A stretch of DNA of 64,000 nt from an uncultured Verrucomicrobiota bacterium (lineage in GTDB: Bacteria; Verrucomicrobiota; Verrucomicrobiia; Limisphaerales; UBA9464), in assembly GCA_903907995.1 (NCBI GenBank), contig CAIVQH010000016.1:1-64000 (forward strand). The letters run 5' to 3'. How positions within the stretch are numbered: position 1 is the first letter of the stretch; each line of letters opens with the position of its first letter. The position numbers and the translations under genes are program-made. Under the pieces are notes generated by a model. It did not search any database. It was not told the origin of the DNA and saw only the letters and a program-made list of their open reading frames with translations. Positions 23,903 to 37,288 of the stretch are shown here, one piece after another.

Positions 23903-24949
23903 TCAACCCAATTTTGCCCGCAACGCCCGGGCGACCTCCAAGAAGGCCTGGGCCGGAGCGCTGTCCGGGGCCGAGACCACGATCGGGATGCCCCGGTCCC
24001 CGCCTTCGCGAATGGCCGTGAACAGGGGGATTTCCCCCAGAAACGGCACGCCCTTGCGCGCCGCCTCGGCCTTGCCGCCACCGTGGCCGAAGATTTCCAG
24101 CCGCGTGCCGTCCGGGGCCGTGAAATAGCTCATGTTCTCCACGAGGCCGAGGATGGGCACGTTCACCTTCTCGAACATGGCCACGCCCTTGCGCACGACG
24201 CCGAGGGATGCCTCCTGCGGGGTGGTGACGATCACGCCGCCATCGAGTGGAACGATCTGGCAGAGCGAGAGCTGCGCGTCGCCGGTCCCGGGGGGGAGAT
24301 CCACCAGCAGATAATCGAGCGTGCCCCAGTCCACCTGGTGGATGAACTGCTGGATTGTCTTTTGAATCATTGGCCCGCGCCAGATGACCGGCTGGTCGTC
24401 CGTGATGAGGAAGCCCATGCTCATGAGCTTCACGCCGTGGGCGACTGGCGGGATCAGCTTCTCGTCCTCCGTGAGGCCGGGACGCTCGTTCAGCCCCATC
24501 ATCAGCGGGATGCTCGGGCCGTAGATGTCACAGTCCAGCAGGCCGACCCTGGCTCCCAGGAACTGCAGGGCACAGGCGAGGTTCACCGAGCAGGTGGATT
24601 TGCCGACGCCGCCCTTGCCGGAGGCGACCGCGACGATGCGGGCGAGCCCGGGAATCTTGGTTTTGGCCCCGAGTCCCGGGGCGGCAGCCGCAGCTTGCTG
24701 GGGCGTGGGCACCCGCAACTGGATATGGGCATCGGTCAGGCCTTCGATGCGGTCGCGCAGGGCGAGCCGGGCGGCATCGGCAATCTGCTCGCCGAGTTCC
24801 TGGTTTGGCGTGGTCAGCTCGATGAGCACGCCCACGGCCATGCCGTCGATCTGGATGTCCTTCACCAGGCCGAACGACACGATGTCGCGGCTGTATCCCG
24901 GGTATTTCACCGTCTTCAGGACGGCGAGAACTGCGTCTTGCGAAAGCAT
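23903..24949 (-). CDS. mrp: Mrp/ApbC-family iron-sulfur carrier ATPase without the usual CxxC
   Basis: The 348-residue protein has an N-terminal MIP18-like domain (about 1-85), an Ala/Pro-rich linker, and a deviant Walker A P-loop ATPase: VASGKGGVGKST near residue 122, LLDCDIYGPSIP, LLVDLPPGTGDAQ and VTTPQEASL. Mrp/ApbC proteins carry Fe-S clusters to apoproteins. The bridging-cluster CxxC that usually follows VENMSYF is replaced by TAPDGTR, so no cysteine pair is present there. Some bacterial Mrp proteins also lack it. It may work differently from ApbC; the isc operon is 10 kb away. Confidence 0.88.
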   Translation of the reverse strand: MLSQDAVLAVLKTVKYPGYSRDIVSFGLVKDIQIDGMAVGVLIELTTPNQELGEQIADAARLALRDRIEGLTDAHIQLRVPTPQQAAAAAPGLGAKTKIPGLARIVAVASGKGGVGKSTCSVNLACALQFLGARVGLLDCDIYGPSIPLMMGLNERPGLTEDEKLIPPVAHGVKLMSMGFLITDDQPVIWRGPMIQKTIQQFIHQVDWGTLDYLLVDLPPGTGDAQLSLCQIVPLDGGVIVTTPQEASLGVVRKGVAMFEKVNVPILGLVENMSYFTAPDGTRLEIFGHGGGKAEAARKGVPFLGEIPLFTAIREGGDRGIPIVVSAPDSAPAQAFLEVARALRAKLG

Positions 24950-29381: not shown

Positions 29382-29592
29382 GCTCCGATATTTGCGGATG
29401 GTCGACGTGGCGCCGACCGGGCCCGGGTGCAGCTCAACCTGCTGCCGGGCAAGCCGCACGAAGTCCGCGCCGTCCCGGCTTGACCCCGCAGCCCTCAGTC
29501 CCAGCCCTCCGCCGCGAGCCGGGCTGAGGGGATCATGGTGCTACCCACGGGTGTCGCGGGGACATCGGGCGGGCAGGGATGACCGGTTTTCA
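29382..29592. other. Intergenic region before the sensor kinase
   Basis: These 211 bases are in frame with the kinase gene but read as low-complexity Pro/Arg/Ser sequence, so I treat them as non-coding. No hairpin or clear promoter was identified. Confidence 0.35.
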
Positions 29593-32500
29593 ATGGTCTT
29601 GCCTCGGCATTCCGTCTCCGTAGGGTCGGCGCGCTTGCCCCCCTTGGATTCCAACCTGATCCGGATCATGGTCTGGGTCGCGACCCTTCTCCTGGCTGGC
29701 TGCCTGCGGGCGGAGACGGGGTCCATGGGGCCGGATGATTATCTGATCCGCAATTTCACCGCCGATGACGGCCTGCGGAGCGACACGCTCTACGCGCTCG
29801 CTCAGGACCGGGACGGCTACCTCTGGGGCGCCAGCGCCGTGGGCTTGGTCCGCTTTGACGGGGCACGGTTCACTGTCTTTGACCGGGATAACACGCCCGG
29901 CTTCACGACCCGGGCCGTGTACTCGGTCTCGCCAGATGGGGGCAGGGGGCTGTGGTTCACGGATGCGCATTATTGGCTGTTCCGCTGGCGGGACGGCCAG
30001 ATCCATCCGCTGCCGCTGCAACCCGCTCCGGAAGCCCCACCGGAAGGGGTGCTCCTCACCTTTCCGGATGCGCAGGGCAACCTCTGGATCTGGAGCCGGG
30101 AAGGTCATAGGTACCGCTGGCGCGAGAGCCAGGCCAATCCGGAACCCGTGGGGCTCGCCGGCTCGCAGGCCTTGCCCTGGCCCGGGAACGGTCCCGAATG
30201 GCACCAGTTGGGCGGTGCTGGCCCGGGCACCCTGCAGTATGGGCTGATCGCCGACGGGCATTTCGTCGCCCGGGCCGATCCGGAAGGGGCGCAAGAATTC
30301 CACACACCGCGCTGTTTCCCACGGGTGGCGGGCGGCTTGTGGATGTTGGAGGATACCGGGGCCGAACTGAAGCTGCGGGCGTTGTCGGCGGCGGGCACGA
30401 TTTCGGCGACACGGCCTTTTCCGCGTCTCCCCGGTGCGCCTCCCAACGCCTATCTGGAAGACCGGGAAGGCAATCTGTGGATCGCCCTGCCCGAAGCCGG
30501 TCTGGCACTTCTCCGGCCGGACGGGACGTTGCGCAGGTTCACGCGGCCGGACGGCTTGCTGTCGGAGCGTATGCGCGCACTTCTCCTCGACCGCGAGGGG
30601 AACGTGTGGGTGGCCACCGATGGCGGCGGGCTTGCCCGGTTCACCCGCCGCCGCTTCCGGACGCTGGGGCGTGCGGAGGGCCTGCCCAGCGAGATCATCT
30701 ACTCCGTGATCGCGGCACCGGCTTCCAGTGGCGGCGGGCTGTGGGTCGCGACTCACGGCGGTGGGGTCCAGCGCTTCCGTGATGGACGTTTTGAGCGTCA
30801 ACCCGGCTTTGATTCCTATCCCTGGGCACTGCATCTCGCTCCCGACGGGGCGCTCCTGGTCGGGGACCTGATGAATGGTCTCGGCACGCTCCGCAACGGA
30901 TCGTTGACGCCGATGGTGGTCGGGCGCCAGTCGGACGCCATCTGCGACGATCCTTCCGGAGGCGGCTGGGCCGGGGGCCAGGGACTCTTCCGTTGGCACG
31001 CGGGCAGCGCCAGCCTGGTTACGAACTGGCTGGGCGGGGGCAACATCACCTCGCTGGCCTGTGCCCGCGATGGCGCGCTCCATTTGGGAACGACCGATGA
31101 CGGACTCTGGATCCGGCGCGCAGGCGCCTTTGAGCGTCTGCCTCTCCCGGGGTGCCCGGCCGGCGTCGAAATCAGCGCCCTCCACTTCGATTCCCAGGAG
31201 GCGCTCTGGGTCGGAACTGCCGGCCATGGCCTGTTCCGGTTCCGTGATGGCCAGTTCAAGGCGATTGCGGTGAAGGATGGGCTCGCGGACCGCTCCGTGC
31301 TGGGCATCGCCGAAGATGGGATCGGCAGCTTCTGGTTCACTTCGCTGGCGGGTATTTTCCGCATCAGCCGGCAGGATCTGGACAATTTTTGCGAGGGACT
31401 GACCTCCCGGGTCACCTCGTACCGTTTCGGCCAGGAAGACGGCCTGGCCGGGTTGCAATGCACGGGTTGGTCTCAACCCAAGATCGCGCGGACGGCCGAT
31501 GGCCGGATGTGGTTCGCGACCATGCGGGGGCTGGCGGTGGCTGACCCGGCCGCCATGTCGGTGAATCCGGCGCCGCCGCCGGTGGTGATCGAGCAGATCA
31601 GCGCCGATGGCCGTGTGCTGCAGGTCACCGGCAGTCCGGCGGCGTACCGCGTCGCCGCCGGCACGCGGCGGATCGAGGTACAGTTCACCGCGCTCAGCCT
31701 CACGGCTCCGGGCAGGGTGCTGTTTCGCCACCGCTTCGTGGGCCGCGACGCCGAATGGACCGAAGCCTCGCCGGAGCGCCGTTTCGTGTTCGGCTCCCTG
31801 CCCCCGGGTCCGTACCGGCTTCAGGTAAGCGCCTGCAACAACGACGGGGTGTGGAATGAGGAGGGGGCGACGCTCGAATTTTCCGTGCTGCCGTTCTTCT
31901 GGCAGACGCTCTGGTTTCGTGCGGCCACGGGCGCTGCGGCCCTGGTCCTGGCGGTCTGGGGCATCCGCTGGGTGTCCCTCCGCAAAGTTCGCCGCCGGCT
32001 GGCCGAACTGGAACGGCAGCAGGCGGTGGACCGCGAGCGCGCCCGCATCGCCCGCGACATGCATGACGACGTCGGCTCCGCGCTGACCCAGCTGACGCTG
32101 ATCAGCTCGCCGATGGACCCCACCGGCGCGGCCATCGAATCGGCGCCGAACCGCCTCGCCCAGGTCACCGAGCTGTCCCGTGAAATTGTCGGCAAGCTGG
32201 ACGAACTGGTCTGGACCGTGAACCCGCGCCACGACACCACCACCGGTCTCGTGGACTATCTCAGCCGGCATGCCGAGGAGATGCTGCGGCCCGGCGGCGT
32301 GAGGGTCCGCTTCGACTTCGCGCCGGGCTTGGCGGCTGTGCCCTTTCCGGCGGATCGGCGCCATCAGGTGTTTCTCGCGTTCAAGGAGGCGGTCAGCAAC
32401 GCCGTCAAACACTCCCAGGCCACGGAAGTCTGGCTGCGCGTCCGGGTGGAGGCGGGCGTCCTGCATTTCGCCGTGGAGGATAACGGGCGGGGTTTCAGTC

Positions 32501-32655
32501 CTGAGTGCGCGACGGGCGGCGACGGGCTGGCAAACATGCAGGAGCGCCTGAAATCCGTGGGTGGAAGGTGTGTGTTCAGCCGGCCTGCGACGGGGGGAAC
32601 CCGGGTCGAATTCCAGCTTCCCATGGCTGACGCTCTTGCGCGGGTGAGGAATTGA
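29593..32655 (+). CDS. Two-component-propeller sensor histidine kinase (NarL/DesK-type kinase core)
   Basis: The 1020-residue sensor has an N-terminal signal or anchor (MVWVATLLLAGC, possible lipobox). A periplasmic region of two beta-propeller-like sets of Reg_prop repeats follows (DRDGYLWGASAVGLVRFDG, DREGNVWVATDGGGLARF), then a Y_Y_Y domain (about 690-760) and one transmembrane helix (about 772-795). The cytoplasmic part is a HisKA_3 dimerisation domain with His824 (IARDMHDDVGSA) and a HATPase (FKEAVSNAVKHS, VEDNGRGF). Such sensors in other bacteria often respond to polysaccharide breakdown products. ATG 29668 is an alternative start. Its regulator follows 60 bases downstream. Confidence 0.87.
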   Translation: MVLPRHSVSVGSARLPPLDSNLIRIMVWVATLLLAGCLRAETGSMGPDDYLIRNFTADDGLRSDTLYALAQDRDGYLWGASAVGLVRFDGARFTVFDRDNTPGFTTRAVYSVSPDGGRGLWFTDAHYWLFRWRDGQIHPLPLQPAPEAPPEGVLLTFPDAQGNLWIWSREGHRYRWRESQANPEPVGLAGSQALPWPGNGPEWHQLGGAGPGTLQYGLIADGHFVARADPEGAQEFHTPRCFPRVAGGLWMLEDTGAELKLRALSAAGTISATRPFPRLPGAPPNAYLEDREGNLWIALPEAGLALLRPDGTLRRFTRPDGLLSERMRALLLDREGNVWVATDGGGLARFTRRRFRTLGRAEGLPSEIIYSVIAAPASSGGGLWVATHGGGVQRFRDGRFERQPGFDSYPWALHLAPDGALLVGDLMNGLGTLRNGSLTPMVVGRQSDAICDDPSGGGWAGGQGLFRWHAGSASLVTNWLGGGNITSLACARDGALHLGTTDDGLWIRRAGAFERLPLPGCPAGVEISALHFDSQEALWVGTAGHGLFRFRDGQFKAIAVKDGLADRSVLGIAEDGIGSFWFTSLAGIFRISRQDLDNFCEGLTSRVTSYRFGQEDGLAGLQCTGWSQPKIARTADGRMWFATMRGLAVADPAAMSVNPAPPPVVIEQISADGRVLQVTGSPAAYRVAAGTRRIEVQFTALSLTAPGRVLFRHRFVGRDAEWTEASPERRFVFGSLPPGPYRLQVSACNNDGVWNEEGATLEFSVLPFFWQTLWFRAATGAAALVLAVWGIRWVSLRKVRRRLAELERQQAVDRERARIARDMHDDVGSALTQLTLISSPMDPTGAAIESAPNRLAQVTELSREIVGKLDELVWTVNPRHDTTTGLVDYLSRHAEEMLRPGGVRVRFDFAPGLAAVPFPADRRHQVFLAFKEAVSNAVKHSQATEVWLRVRVEAGVLHFAVEDNGRGFSPECATGGDGLANMQERLKSVGGRCVFSRPATGGTRVEFQLPMADALARVRN

Positions 32656-32715: not shown

Positions 32716-33363
32716 ATGCCTGCCAAAGCCCCGCCACCGATCAGGGTCGCCGTCGTGGAGGACGACGACCGGCTGCGTGCCGGCTTCGTGTCGCGCCTGG
32801 AACGCGCGGAGGGCTTCCGCTGTGTGGGGGCCTTTGCCAGCGCGGAGCAGGCGCTGGCCGGGCTTCCCGAAGCCGCGCCGGAGATCGTGCTCATGGACAT
32901 CAACCTGCCCGGGAAATCGGGCATCGACTGTGTCCGTGAGCTCAAGCTGAAGCATCCCGCCATCCAGTTCCTCATGCTGACCGTGTATGAGGATCTGGAC
33001 CTGATCTTCCGCTCGCTGCAGGCCGGAGCCACCGGCTATCTGCTCAAACGGGCCGTTCCGGGGGAATTGCTGGCGGCCATCCGTGATCTGCACGCCGGCG
33101 GGGCACCGATGACCAGCCTGATTGCGCGCAAGGTCGTGGAATCCTTCGCGTCCAAGACCCGGACGGATGGTCGGGAGCAGGTCAGCCTGACACCGCGCGA
33201 GCGGGAAATCGTCGAGGCCCTCGCCCAGGGCTGCCCCTACAAGGAAATTGCCGACCGCTGCGGCATCAGCCTCTCCACGGTCCGCACCCATCTCCAGCGT
33301 ATCTACGAAAAGCTGCAGGTGAACAACCGCACCGAGGCCGTCGTGAAATTTCTGGGCCGATAG
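32716..33363 (+). CDS. NarL/FixJ-type response regulator
   Basis: The 215-residue protein joins a receiver domain (acidic pocket VVEDDD, phospho-acceptor Asp61 in VLMDINLPG, conserved Thr in LMLTVYED, Lys in YLLKRAV) to a LuxR-type helix-turn-helix (LTPREREIVEALAQG, GISLSTVRTHLQRIYEKL). It is the evident partner of the propeller kinase just upstream. Targets are unknown; the next gene downstream, a PEP-CTERM protein 240 bases away, is one candidate. Confidence 0.93.
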   Translation: MPAKAPPPIRVAVVEDDDRLRAGFVSRLERAEGFRCVGAFASAEQALAGLPEAAPEIVLMDINLPGKSGIDCVRELKLKHPAIQFLMLTVYEDLDLIFRSLQAGATGYLLKRAVPGELLAAIRDLHAGGAPMTSLIARKVVESFASKTRTDGREQVSLTPREREIVEALAQGCPYKEIADRCGISLSTVRTHLQRIYEKLQVNNRTEAVVKFLGR

Positions 33364-34440: not shown

Positions 34441-35706
34441 TCAGTGCGCCGCCTTGCCCGAAACATCCGCCGCGTGCTGGGAGAAGGACTTGCCACGGCC
34501 CGTCGGGGCGATCACCGAGTCGATGACGCCGCGCTGGAACTCGTCCCACATGGGCGACATGCCGCGCAGCTTCGTCGCGATCTTGGCGAAGGTCTCGATC
34601 GTGTAGTCCACGTCCTCCTCGGTGTTCGCCATGCCCAGGGTCATGATGATGTTGCCCTGTGCCAACGCGTGGTCGAGGCCGATGGCGCTGAGCACGTGCG
34701 AGACCTTCAGCGACTTGCTCACGCAGCTCGAACCGCTCGCGACGGCGATGCCGTTCATGTCGCAGAGCAGGAGCTGCCCCTCGCCCTCAATGAACTCGGT
34801 CGAAAGGTTCAGGTTGGTTGAGATGCGCTTCGGGCCGGGTTCGGCGCCGTTCAGCTTGATGTACGTGATCTGCGACTTGAGGCCGTCCCACAGGCGCTTT
34901 TGCAGGTGCGCGGTGTGGGCGATGCGCTTGGGCAGTTCCGTCAGCGCAATTTCTGCCGCCACGCCACCGCCGACGATGGCGGGGACGTTTTCCGTCCCGG
35001 CGCGACGACCGCCCTCCTGCACGCCGCCATGCATCATCGAGACGATGCGGGCCTTCTTGTTGCGGTAGAGCACGCCCACGCCCTTCGGCCCGTAAAAACG
35101 GTGGGGCGAGAAGCTCACGAGCGCCGCGCCGAACTCCTTCACGTCGATCGGCAGCCAACCGGCGCTGGCTTCGCAGTCCACGTAGAGCGGCACGCCCTTC
35201 TCGGCGCAGATCTTCCCGACCTCGCGCATCGGTTGGATCGTGCCGATGTCGTGGTTCACGTGGTGGACGGCGACGAGCACGGTCTGCGGCGTGATGGCCG
35301 CGCGGAGTTCCTCCAGGTTCAGAACGCCTTCCTTGTCCACGCTCACGCGGGTGCAGGTCCAGCCCTGCTTCTCCAGGAATTCCACCGAGTTGATCACGCT
35401 CGGATGTTCGGTGGCGGAAATGACGAGGTGCTTGCCCTTGCGCTCGTTGGCATAGGCGACGCCCTTGATCGCCAGGTTGGCGGACTCGGTGCCGTCGGAG
35501 GTGAAGAAGATCTCCTCCTCGCTGTCGGCATTGATGAGGGTGGCCATCTGCTGGCGGGCCTTCTTCAGCGCATCCCGCACGCGCAGGCCGTGCTGGTGCA
35601 GTGAAGACGGATTGCCGAAGGCCTCGGTGAAGTACGGCTTCATCGCGTCGAAGACTTCGGGCAGCACGGGCGTGCTGGACTGGTGGTCGAGAAAAACGTG
35701 GCGCAT
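34441..35706 (-). CDS. iscS: IscS/NifS-like cysteine desulfurase lacking the PLP lysine
   Basis: The 421-residue protein aligns with class I cysteine desulfurases, which move sulfur from cysteine to IscU. It keeps TSDGTESAN near 70, His101 (SATEHPS), Asp177, the RRAGTEN motif and the mobile-loop Cys328 (SGSSC). Three cofactor residues are changed relative to E. coli IscS: HK of the PLP-lysine motif is HR here (Arg203 in SPHRFYGPKG), the Asn of VNNE is His152 (VNHD), and the Gln of DxxQS is Ala180 (DCEAS). Codon 203 (35098-35100) reads CGT on the minus strand. It may be a divergent subclass or a non-desulfurase. It is the last gene of the isc operon. Confidence 0.85.
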   Translation of the reverse strand: MRHVFLDHQSSTPVLPEVFDAMKPYFTEAFGNPSSLHQHGLRVRDALKKARQQMATLINADSEEEIFFTSDGTESANLAIKGVAYANERKGKHLVISATEHPSVINSVEFLEKQGWTCTRVSVDKEGVLNLEELRAAITPQTVLVAVHHVNHDIGTIQPMREVGKICAEKGVPLYVDCEASAGWLPIDVKEFGAALVSFSPHRFYGPKGVGVLYRNKKARIVSMMHGGVQEGGRRAGTENVPAIVGGGVAAEIALTELPKRIAHTAHLQKRLWDGLKSQITYIKLNGAEPGPKRISTNLNLSTEFIEGEGQLLLCDMNGIAVASGSSCVSKSLKVSHVLSAIGLDHALAQGNIIMTLGMANTEEDVDYTIETFAKIATKLRGMSPMWDEFQRGVIDSVIAPTGRGKSFSQHAADVSGKAAH

Positions 35707-35898: not shown

Positions 35899-36237
35899 CT
35901 AGGCGTTCGGCAGAAAATAGAATTTGAAGCCGTATTCGCGCAGGAGCAGGAAATCCCTCACGTTTTCCTGATCGAAGACCTCCGTCAGTTTCTTCTGATC
36001 TGCGGCCTGTGGATTGAGCTCGTGACGGCCGAAGTCCAAGGCGCCGACGCCGAAACAGGCCGCCAACGCATGGCTCTCCTCCGAGGTCATGGCGAGGAAC
36101 ACATTGGAAACGACCGTGGCTCCCTCCTTCACCTGGGCGTAGTCAGCTTCCGGATACTCCAGAGCCTTTACGACTTTTCGTGAAAAGGGGCCGATGGCGA
36201 TGATCTGGGCATCCAATCCCATGGCTATATTGGACAT
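35899..36237 (-). CDS. Uncharacterised small protein in the isc operon
   Basis: A 112-residue soluble protein encoded between iscU and iscS on the same strand. It starts MSNIAMGLDAQIIAIGPFS and contains hydrophobic strands alternating with charged helices, e.g. VVSNVFLAMTSEESHALAACF and DFLLLREYGFKFYFLPNA. The ATG at 36237 is preferred to a TTG 15 bases upstream. I do not recognise a family. Two cysteine-poor regions and only one Cys argue against an Fe-S scaffold. Its position, with gaps of 77 and 192 bases to its neighbours, suggests but does not prove a role with IscU or IscS. Confidence 0.65.
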   Translation of the reverse strand: MSNIAMGLDAQIIAIGPFSRKVVKALEYPEADYAQVKEGATVVSNVFLAMTSEESHALAACFGVGALDFGRHELNPQAADQKKLTEVFDQENVRDFLLLREYGFKFYFLPNA

Positions 36238-36314
36238 CGTTTGCGGTGACAAAAAATCTGCGGCTACACGGCGCGAACCGTCCAGCCGCAGGATTTCGTG
36301 AAATTGACTAACGT

Positions 36315-36743
36315 TCAGGCGGCAACGGGTTCGGCCTTGTTCGCCTTGGCGGCGGCTTCGGGATGCCGCTTCACGTAGTCTTCGAGGGCGGCCTTCAGGG
36401 CTTCCTCGGCGAGGACGGAGCAGTGGATCTTCACCGGCGGCAGGCCGCCCAGAGCGTCCACAACTTCTTGGTTCGAAAAGTCCATGGCCTCGGCGATCGT
36501 CCGGCCCTTGATCAGCTCGGTCGCCATGCTGGAGCTGGCAATCGCCGAGCCGCAGCCGAAGGTCTTGAAACGGGCGTCCTCGATCTTACCATCCTTGATC
36601 TTGATCGAGATCTTCATGATGTCGCCGCAGGCGGCGGCCCCGACTTCGCCGACGCCGTCGGCGTCCTTGATGTCACCCATGTTGCGCGGATTCATGAAGT
36701 GTTCCATGACCGTCGGGTTGTAGAGAGTGTAGGTATCGCTCAT
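36315..36743 (-). CDS. iscU: Iron-sulfur cluster scaffold IscU
   Basis: The 142-residue scaffold protein on which Fe-S clusters are built. All ligand residues are present: Cys39 and Asp41 (AACGDIM), Cys64 (TFGCGSA), His107 and Cys108 (KIHCSVL). An Ala/Lys-rich tail of about 15 residues follows the domain. The usual LPPVK motif (recognised by the HscA chaperone) is present just before the last cysteine. The gene is 35 bases downstream of the iscR-like gene on the same strand. Confidence 0.94.
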   Translation of the reverse strand: MSDTYTLYNPTVMEHFMNPRNMGDIKDADGVGEVGAAACGDIMKISIKIKDGKIEDARFKTFGCGSAIASSSMATELIKGRTIAEAMDFSNQEVVDALGGLPPVKIHCSVLAEEALKAALEDYVKRHPEAAAKANKAEPVAA

Positions 36744-36778: not shown

Positions 36779-37288
36779 TCAGGAGATCGCAGCCACGGCG
36801 GGCACTGACTTGTCGGTGGTCTGCGGACGGAAAACGATGGGACTCCGGGTGTTGGCCTGCGCCCGCTTCACGAGTCCGGCCGGAATGTGCCGGGTGGCGA
36901 GCTGCGCCAGCGTCGTGCCGGCGAAAACTTCCTTCACCTTGTCCTGCGCCTCGGCGAAGAGGCTGCACAGGGCACAGCCACCGGCATGTTCGCAGCCGGT
37001 TTCTTCGTCCAGGCAGCGGGTGAGCGCCACCGGTCCCTCGACGGCCTCGATCACCGTCAGCACCGTGATTTCCTCGGGCCGGCGCAGCAGGACGAAACCG
37101 CCGCCGGAACCGCGGGTGGACTTCACCAGCCCGGCGCGGGCAAGGCTCTGAAAGATCTTCCCTAGGAAGCTGACTGGCACGTCTTCCTCGTGCGCGACGA
37201 CGTCCAGCAGCGCCACCTCACCGACCGGACGGCGGGCGAGGGCGAGCAGACCCAGCATGGCATATTCGCTGGCGCGGGTGACTTGCAT
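36779..37288 (-). CDS. iscR: IscR-like Rrf2-family Fe-S-sensing regulator
   Basis: The 169-residue protein has an Rrf2 winged helix-turn-helix (SEYAMLGLLALARRP, VPVSFLGKIFQSLARAGLVKSTRG, GGGFVLLRRPEEITV) and a cysteine cluster at C92, C99, C105 and C108. The spacing C-x6-C-x5-C-x2-C differs slightly from E. coli IscR (C-x5-C-x5-C-x2-H), with a fourth Cys where the His ligand would be. It should bind a [2Fe-2S] cluster and repress its own operon. A 17-bp palindrome matching the IscR type 1 core lies 20 bases before its start. Confidence 0.9.
   Translation of the reverse strand: MQVTRASEYAMLGLLALARRPVGEVALLDVVAHEEDVPVSFLGKIFQSLARAGLVKSTRGSGGGFVLLRRPEEITVLTVIEAVEGPVALTRCLDEETGCEHAGGCALCSLFAEAQDKVKEVFAGTTLAQLATRHIPAGLVKRAQANTRSPIVFRPQTTDKSVPAVAAIS

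Follow-up and report, generated by a model that had tools for sequence, protein, structure and literature searches.

Iron-sulfur (Fe-S) cluster assembly, in its textbook form, requires a pyridoxal phosphate (PLP)-dependent cysteine desulfurase bound to a scaffold. What, then, is to be made of a gene that lies in an ISC-style cluster beside iscU and encodes an IscS-like protein without the lysine that holds PLP? The gene in question was found in a window of 64,000 nucleotides (the whole stretch of DNA that was analyzed) from an uncultured verrucomicrobial bacterium of the order Limisphaerales. Its open reading frame, encoding 421 amino acids, is carried on the minus strand at 34441-35706; on the plus strand the same interval is interrupted by stops. 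We put at about 0.6 the probability that the product has the IscS/NifS fold but is catalytically silent, and that it has been retained as the partner of IscU or of Mrp in assembling Fe-S clusters.

The active site was compared with that of E. coli IscS by alignment, using a reference sequence that matched PDB 1p3w over its full length. As the first-pass annotation of this DNA had read from the letters, an Arg codon (CGT, at 35098-35100) stands at codon 203, within SPHRFYGPKG, in the position of the Schiff-base Lys206. The two further replacements claimed there, His for Asn and Ala for Gln, are borne out by the alignment of His152 (35251-35253) with Asn155 and of Ala180 (35167-35169) with Gln183. 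A fourth loss had escaped mention: Ile354 (34645-34647) where IscS has Arg354. The residues described as remaining do remain, His101, Asp177 and the sulfur-carrying Cys328 (34723-34725; all of these codons on the minus strand) being aligned with His104, Asp180 and Cys328. The protein shares with the NifS/IscS desulfurases their fold, the Cys328 loop with its persulfide cysteine, the equivalents of Asp180 and His104, and an iscR/iscU operon, but it differs from them in the four active-site residues, among them the Schiff-base lysine (now Arg203) and the pair Gln183 and Arg354 (now Ala180 and Ile354), and it scores below the cut-offs of both curated families (422 versus 530.75 bits for TIGR03402, NifS; 380 versus 643.2 bits for TIGR02006).

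According to PMC9978102, the K206A, Q183E and H104Q variants of E. coli IscS have no desulfurase activity, and R354K, the sole Arg354 variant tested there, remains active. Arg354 is thus not indispensable in E. coli IscS, and the weight given here to its replacement by Ile is a matter of judgment. With Lys and Gln lost and Ile in place of Arg, the window protein is unlikely to desulfurate cysteine, and since other needed positions are lost as well, an R203K substitution alone probably would not restore activity. Annotation by similarity would probably label these proteins cysteine desulfurases all the same.

The operon with iscR and iscU that had been proposed is present: upstream of the gene, on the same (minus) strand, lie iscU (36315-36743), encoding a scaffold with C39, D41, C64, H107, C108 and an LPPVK motif, and a gene for an Rrf2-family (IscR-like) regulator recognized by profile scan (36779-37288). 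Between iscU and the iscS-like gene is an open reading frame of 117 amino acids with a TTG start (35899-36252, minus strand), for which searches of Pfam and NCBIfam gave no matches. Homologues of it (61-68%) occur only beside the genes of a few close relatives (loci L009-L011 and those of genomes G391 and G435), and none was found beside that of L008, which is 99% identical.

Could the Arg codon be a sequencing error, as the first-pass annotation had allowed? That is ruled out by the conservation of Arg among relatives and by the variety of its codons. Residue 203 is Arg in 127 of 135 distinct members (Lys in 6, His in 1, Gly in 1), and the Arg is encoded in five ways, by all four CGN codons and by one AGG. 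Removed before this count were second copies of a locus, proteins identical in sequence, matches without residue 203 and, as Lys-type, those having both Asn152 and Gln180. When genomes were scanned, one for each species, 132 relatives emerged, and the best 80 of them, retained as named loci, carry Arg (77), Lys (2) or His (1); these were found by means of peptide patterns from the query, one of them including His152, and so lean to query-like proteins, but residue 203 was in none of the patterns. The record titles of the same best 80 of 132 name Verrucomicrobiota in all but three cases, a "bacterium", a "Betaproteobacteria" and a "Bacteroidetes" bin. The family is centered on this order: a match of at least 400 bits was found in 69 of 145 genomes within the order and in only 4 of 387 across the phylum (G000, G008, G265 and G078), while some members score lower (e.g., L215, at 365 bits). 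A distant member from another family of the class (L090, in G265) has Gly203 and a changed pocket (FRGCGGPV) and retains Cys328.

Cys328 and Asp177 are present in all 135 distinct members, and the Cys328 loop is highly conserved. Gln183 is lost in all 135 (the proteins with Asn152 and Gln180 having been set aside beforehand as Lys-type), and residue 354 is Arg in 1 of the 134 members where it is readable, the rest having Ile, Leu, Val, Met, Thr, Gln or Ser. Among aligned rows, Asn155, Gln183, Lys206 and Arg354 are all intact in 21 of 21 of the Lys type (18 loci from the phylum and 3 references), whereas in 66 rows of the R family Asn155 and Gln183 are kept in none, Lys206 in 6 and Arg354 in 1, a comparison in which the grouping was itself made by these residues. 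The six members with Lys203 still lack Asn155, Gln183 and Arg354; they are L123, L124 and L125 (family f91, which includes the single-contig genome G461), L068, L085 and L175. The four positions have thus been lost as a set and Arg203 is conserved in its own right, and a residue so conserved probably has some role.

A lysine-less IscS beside IscU is already known from archaea. The IscS of Archaeoglobus fulgidus (PDB 4eb5, 4eb7, 4hvk; D199K mutant 4r5f), which is reported (PMC7585200) to have no desulfurase activity and to provide its Cys as a ligand to the IscU cluster, shares with the window protein the IscS fold, an IscU partner, the loss of the PLP lysine, Ala for Gln183, an aliphatic residue for Arg354 and the retained Cys. 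However, it is archaeal and only 43% identical, Asp rather than Arg replaces its lysine, and it has lost His205 (now Asn) while keeping Asn155, the reverse of what is seen in most of the bacterial family. In Methanosarcina acetivorans, IscS1 is described as lacking the catalytic lysine and being encoded in an IscSU pair (PMC7585200); the same source and PMC10500019 credit that organism also with SufBC and two IscS proteins with the PLP residues. The MisSU system of Helicobacter pylori joins a desulfurase-like protein to a scaffold, as sole machinery according to PMC10653786, but that pair includes a cysteine desulfurase, whereas here the S-type partner lacks the lysine and is accompanied by two A-type proteins and Mrp. 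As far as the literature searched extends, what is new is the bacterial family, its Arg signature, the loss of four residues, the tie to Mrp and the position next to the sole recognized scaffold of a lineage without SUF. No verrucomicrobial lysine-less desulfurase was found by title or start of abstract in that literature, from which most subscription papers were excluded.

Did the archaeal and the bacterial proteins lose their lysine separately? With the four active-site columns removed, the family makes up one side of a branch with an SH-aLRT value of 100 in a tree of 88 rows, and the corresponding branch in a tree of 48 rows has support of 100/99 (with a bootstrap that had not settled). A. 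fulgidus IscS groups with a Lys-type sequence in the trees (98/86 in that of 48 rows). Forcing it into the family gave a likelihood 19 log units higher in the quick 88-row tree (p-AU 0.772) and 15 log units lower in the careful 48-row tree (p-AU 0.283). A loss of lysine independent of that of A. fulgidus IscS is favored by the trees but not established by them, as the AU test does not reject the union and a single shared loss would also be compatible with it. On the 88-row tree no fewer than four changes are needed to account for the members of the family with Lys203, whose lysine looks secondary. Perhaps this part of the clade, G461 included, might bind PLP covalently. These proteins, having Lys203 and lacking the other three residues, amount to natural tests of whether lysine alone restores PLP binding.

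If the window protein does not release sulfur from cysteine, another protein might. The genome assembly (60 contigs, 95.67% complete) has seven matches to class-V aminotransferases, six of them above cut-off, and the search for a second NifS or SufS with the lysine, suggested at the outset, turned up two Lys-type NifS-like proteins, one on contig C49 (SAHKLHAPKG) and one on contig C1 (CAHKFHGPKG). The first is above the NCBIfam cut-off for NifS (547 versus 530.75 bits), and the second is below that of TIGR03402. The IscU of the iscS-like operon is the genome's only NifU_N match. No match to the SufB/D core was found in the genome by a search that was positive in 14 of 14 control genomes, nor any SufS above cut-off. 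HscB (PF07743) gave no match in the genome either, in a search that was positive among the 14 controls only in E. coli. There are two matches to A-type carriers and one strong match to Mrp/ApbC (323 bits; four others reach at most 57 bits). The latter is an Fe-S carrier ATPase with an N-terminal FeS_assembly_P domain by profile scan, encoded at 23903-24949 on the minus strand, 9.5 kb downstream of the iscS-like gene.

The absence of SUF extends to relatives. Of 145 genomes sampled from the order, 27 have no SUF (20 listed as such and 7 missing from the list of SUF matches), and 25 have a strong IscU, defined as a NifU_N match above 130 bits. The two go together: SUF is absent from 22 of the 25 genomes with strong IscU versus 5 among the remaining 120 (Fisher p 3e-18, a value that treats related genomes as if they were independent). 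In the 22 genomes combining strong IscU with no SUF, the IscS-like protein has the Arg203 form in 19 and the Lys203 form in 3, and a Lys-type NifS is present in all 21 that were checked (G471 lying outside the check). One of them, G461, consists of a single contig with iscU, no SUF and an IscS-like protein with Lys203, so there the absence of SUF is not due to lost contigs. Of the five SUF-less genomes without strong IscU, four (G434, G436, G439 and G503) show no NifU_N match of any strength, a hint that genes are missing from some bins. The scaffold gene need not be adjacent: in G404 a distance of 69 kb separates it from the iscS-like gene, and in SUF-bearing relatives the IscS-like protein is often encoded without an adjoining iscU.

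Gene order ties the family to a second Fe-S protein. A gene for Mrp/ApbC follows downstream, no more than 3.5 kb away and on the same strand, in 76 of 120 distinct members and in 0 of 39 Lys-type loci; within 2.5 kb upstream, again on the same strand, iscU is found in 76 of 127 versus 16 of 47. These counts drop matches that end before residue 370 or do not cover residue 203, as well as copies identical over residues 20-369, and for mrp they supersede a count with repeated loci included (87/138 versus 0/25). Where both flanks are readable (114 members), mrp follows in 49 of the 67 with iscU and in 24 of the 47 without it, leaving 23 with neither iscU directly upstream nor mrp downstream. A domain scan of two Mrp proteins showed, in both, an iron-transfer NTPase domain of the NUBPL type and an FeS_assembly_P domain. 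The recurrent neighbors are Fe-S genes along with pyrR and pyrB. After mrp, 30 of 138 loci (repeats included) carry a gene for a conserved protein of 70 amino acids, mostly followed by pyrR and pyrB; the example between mrp and pyrR at L030:8708-8917 has a DUF4032 match just below cut-off.

The predicted structure has the fold of IscS and NFS1. An AlphaFold2 model made from a 17-row alignment (mean pLDDT 74, pTM 0.78) superimposes on A. fulgidus IscS 4eb5 with Z 41.1 and an rmsd of 2.1 over 346 residues, and it fits human NFS1 and E. coli IscS equally well (Z about 41 and rmsd 2.0-2.4 for the three). Since pLDDT falls below 50 at 225-238 and 306-352, among other places, the pocket and the Cys loop of the model were not interpreted. 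The C-terminal tail, which in IscS helps IscU binding and may do so here, reads SPMWDEF, resembling SPLWEMY of E. coli IscS and SPLWEMV of NFS1, while the organism's own NifS differs (SPLNPE). Its Trp387 is found in 55 of 66 R-family rows and also in 9 of 22 others.

How might such a protein work? Judging by gene order and tail alone, the IscS-like dimer would dock on IscU or on Mrp. The Cys328 loop would accept persulfide from the genome's Lys-type NifS, or take up sulfide, and pass the sulfur to the scaffold; alternatively, Cys328 could coordinate the cluster itself, the role reported for the Cys of A. fulgidus IscS. Under anaerobic conditions, E. coli can make do with sulfide in place of IscS but not of IscU (PMC13015791). 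In a lineage without SUF, the IscS-like route would make most clusters. The broadest version of this proposal, which we find possible but short of probable, is that in the SUF-less lineage essentially all Fe-S clusters are made on IscU with a catalytically dead IscS partner, the PLP pocket and conserved Arg binding some other ligand or handling persulfide, and sulfur coming in trans from NifS via Cys328 or as sulfide, while in SUF-bearing relatives the same protein serves Mrp/ApbC and so would be a general Fe-S assembly factor.

The first-pass annotation had offered two explanations, a subclass with unusual cofactor binding or a sulfur relay without desulfurase activity in a genome with another IscS. 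The second, as a non-desulfurase partner accompanied by another desulfurase, fits best, given the Lys-type NifS proteins on C49 and C1 and the four residues lost in one clade. The first would have the protein still be a PLP enzyme, holding PLP or PMP without a Schiff-base lysine and using Arg203 and His101 for a slow reaction, or one of another kind, with a sulfur compound. In its favor, much of the pocket remains (Thr73 in 128, His101 in 130 and His202 in 126 of the 135 distinct members, besides the invariant Asp177), Arg203 itself is conserved, E. coli IscS K206A retains some PLP (PMC9978102) and a published figure of the A. fulgidus complex 4EB5 shows PLP (PMC9769115). However, the pervasive loss of Gln183 and Arg354, the inactivity of E. 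coli Q183E (PMC9978102), and neighbors that point to no substrate make it unlikely.

Perhaps instead the protein is a structural or regulatory subunit that sits on IscU or Mrp, or anchors the genuine NifS, with Cys328 chemically unused. The loss of catalytic residues beside a retained fold and C-terminal tail accords with this, but a purely structural role needs neither an invariant Cys328 nor a conserved loop around it, and we rate the idea as improbable. One might also see in the lost catalytic residues a relic, either a decaying desulfurase pseudogene or an error of assembly. Conservation in our view already refutes this, leaving it a negligible chance: the frame stays open throughout the order, even in relatives of only about 40% identity, Arg is written with five codons, and the same neighbors recur. 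If the protein is indeed a non-catalytic partner of IscU or Mrp, then two roles of IscS, producing sulfur and attending the scaffold, would seem to have been separated by evolution in more than 100 distinct members, and in one lineage the IscS-like protein usually sits beside the only recognized Fe-S scaffold. Whether IscS can contribute to assembly without catalysis, the question that A. fulgidus raised, can now be put to the test in bacterial proteins, alongside a Lys-type NifS encoded by the very same organism.

Two of the four losses possibly have counterparts among structures already solved by experiment. In the PDB series 9wep-9wfy of cysteine desulfurase structures, the alignments of 9wfe and 9wfy place Val at the position of Arg354, and SufS K235R has been solved as 7tlp. 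Near the iscS-like gene, on the opposite (plus) strand, the window also carries a two-component pair, consisting of a propeller sensor histidine kinase (29392-32655) and a LuxR-type response regulator (32716-33363).
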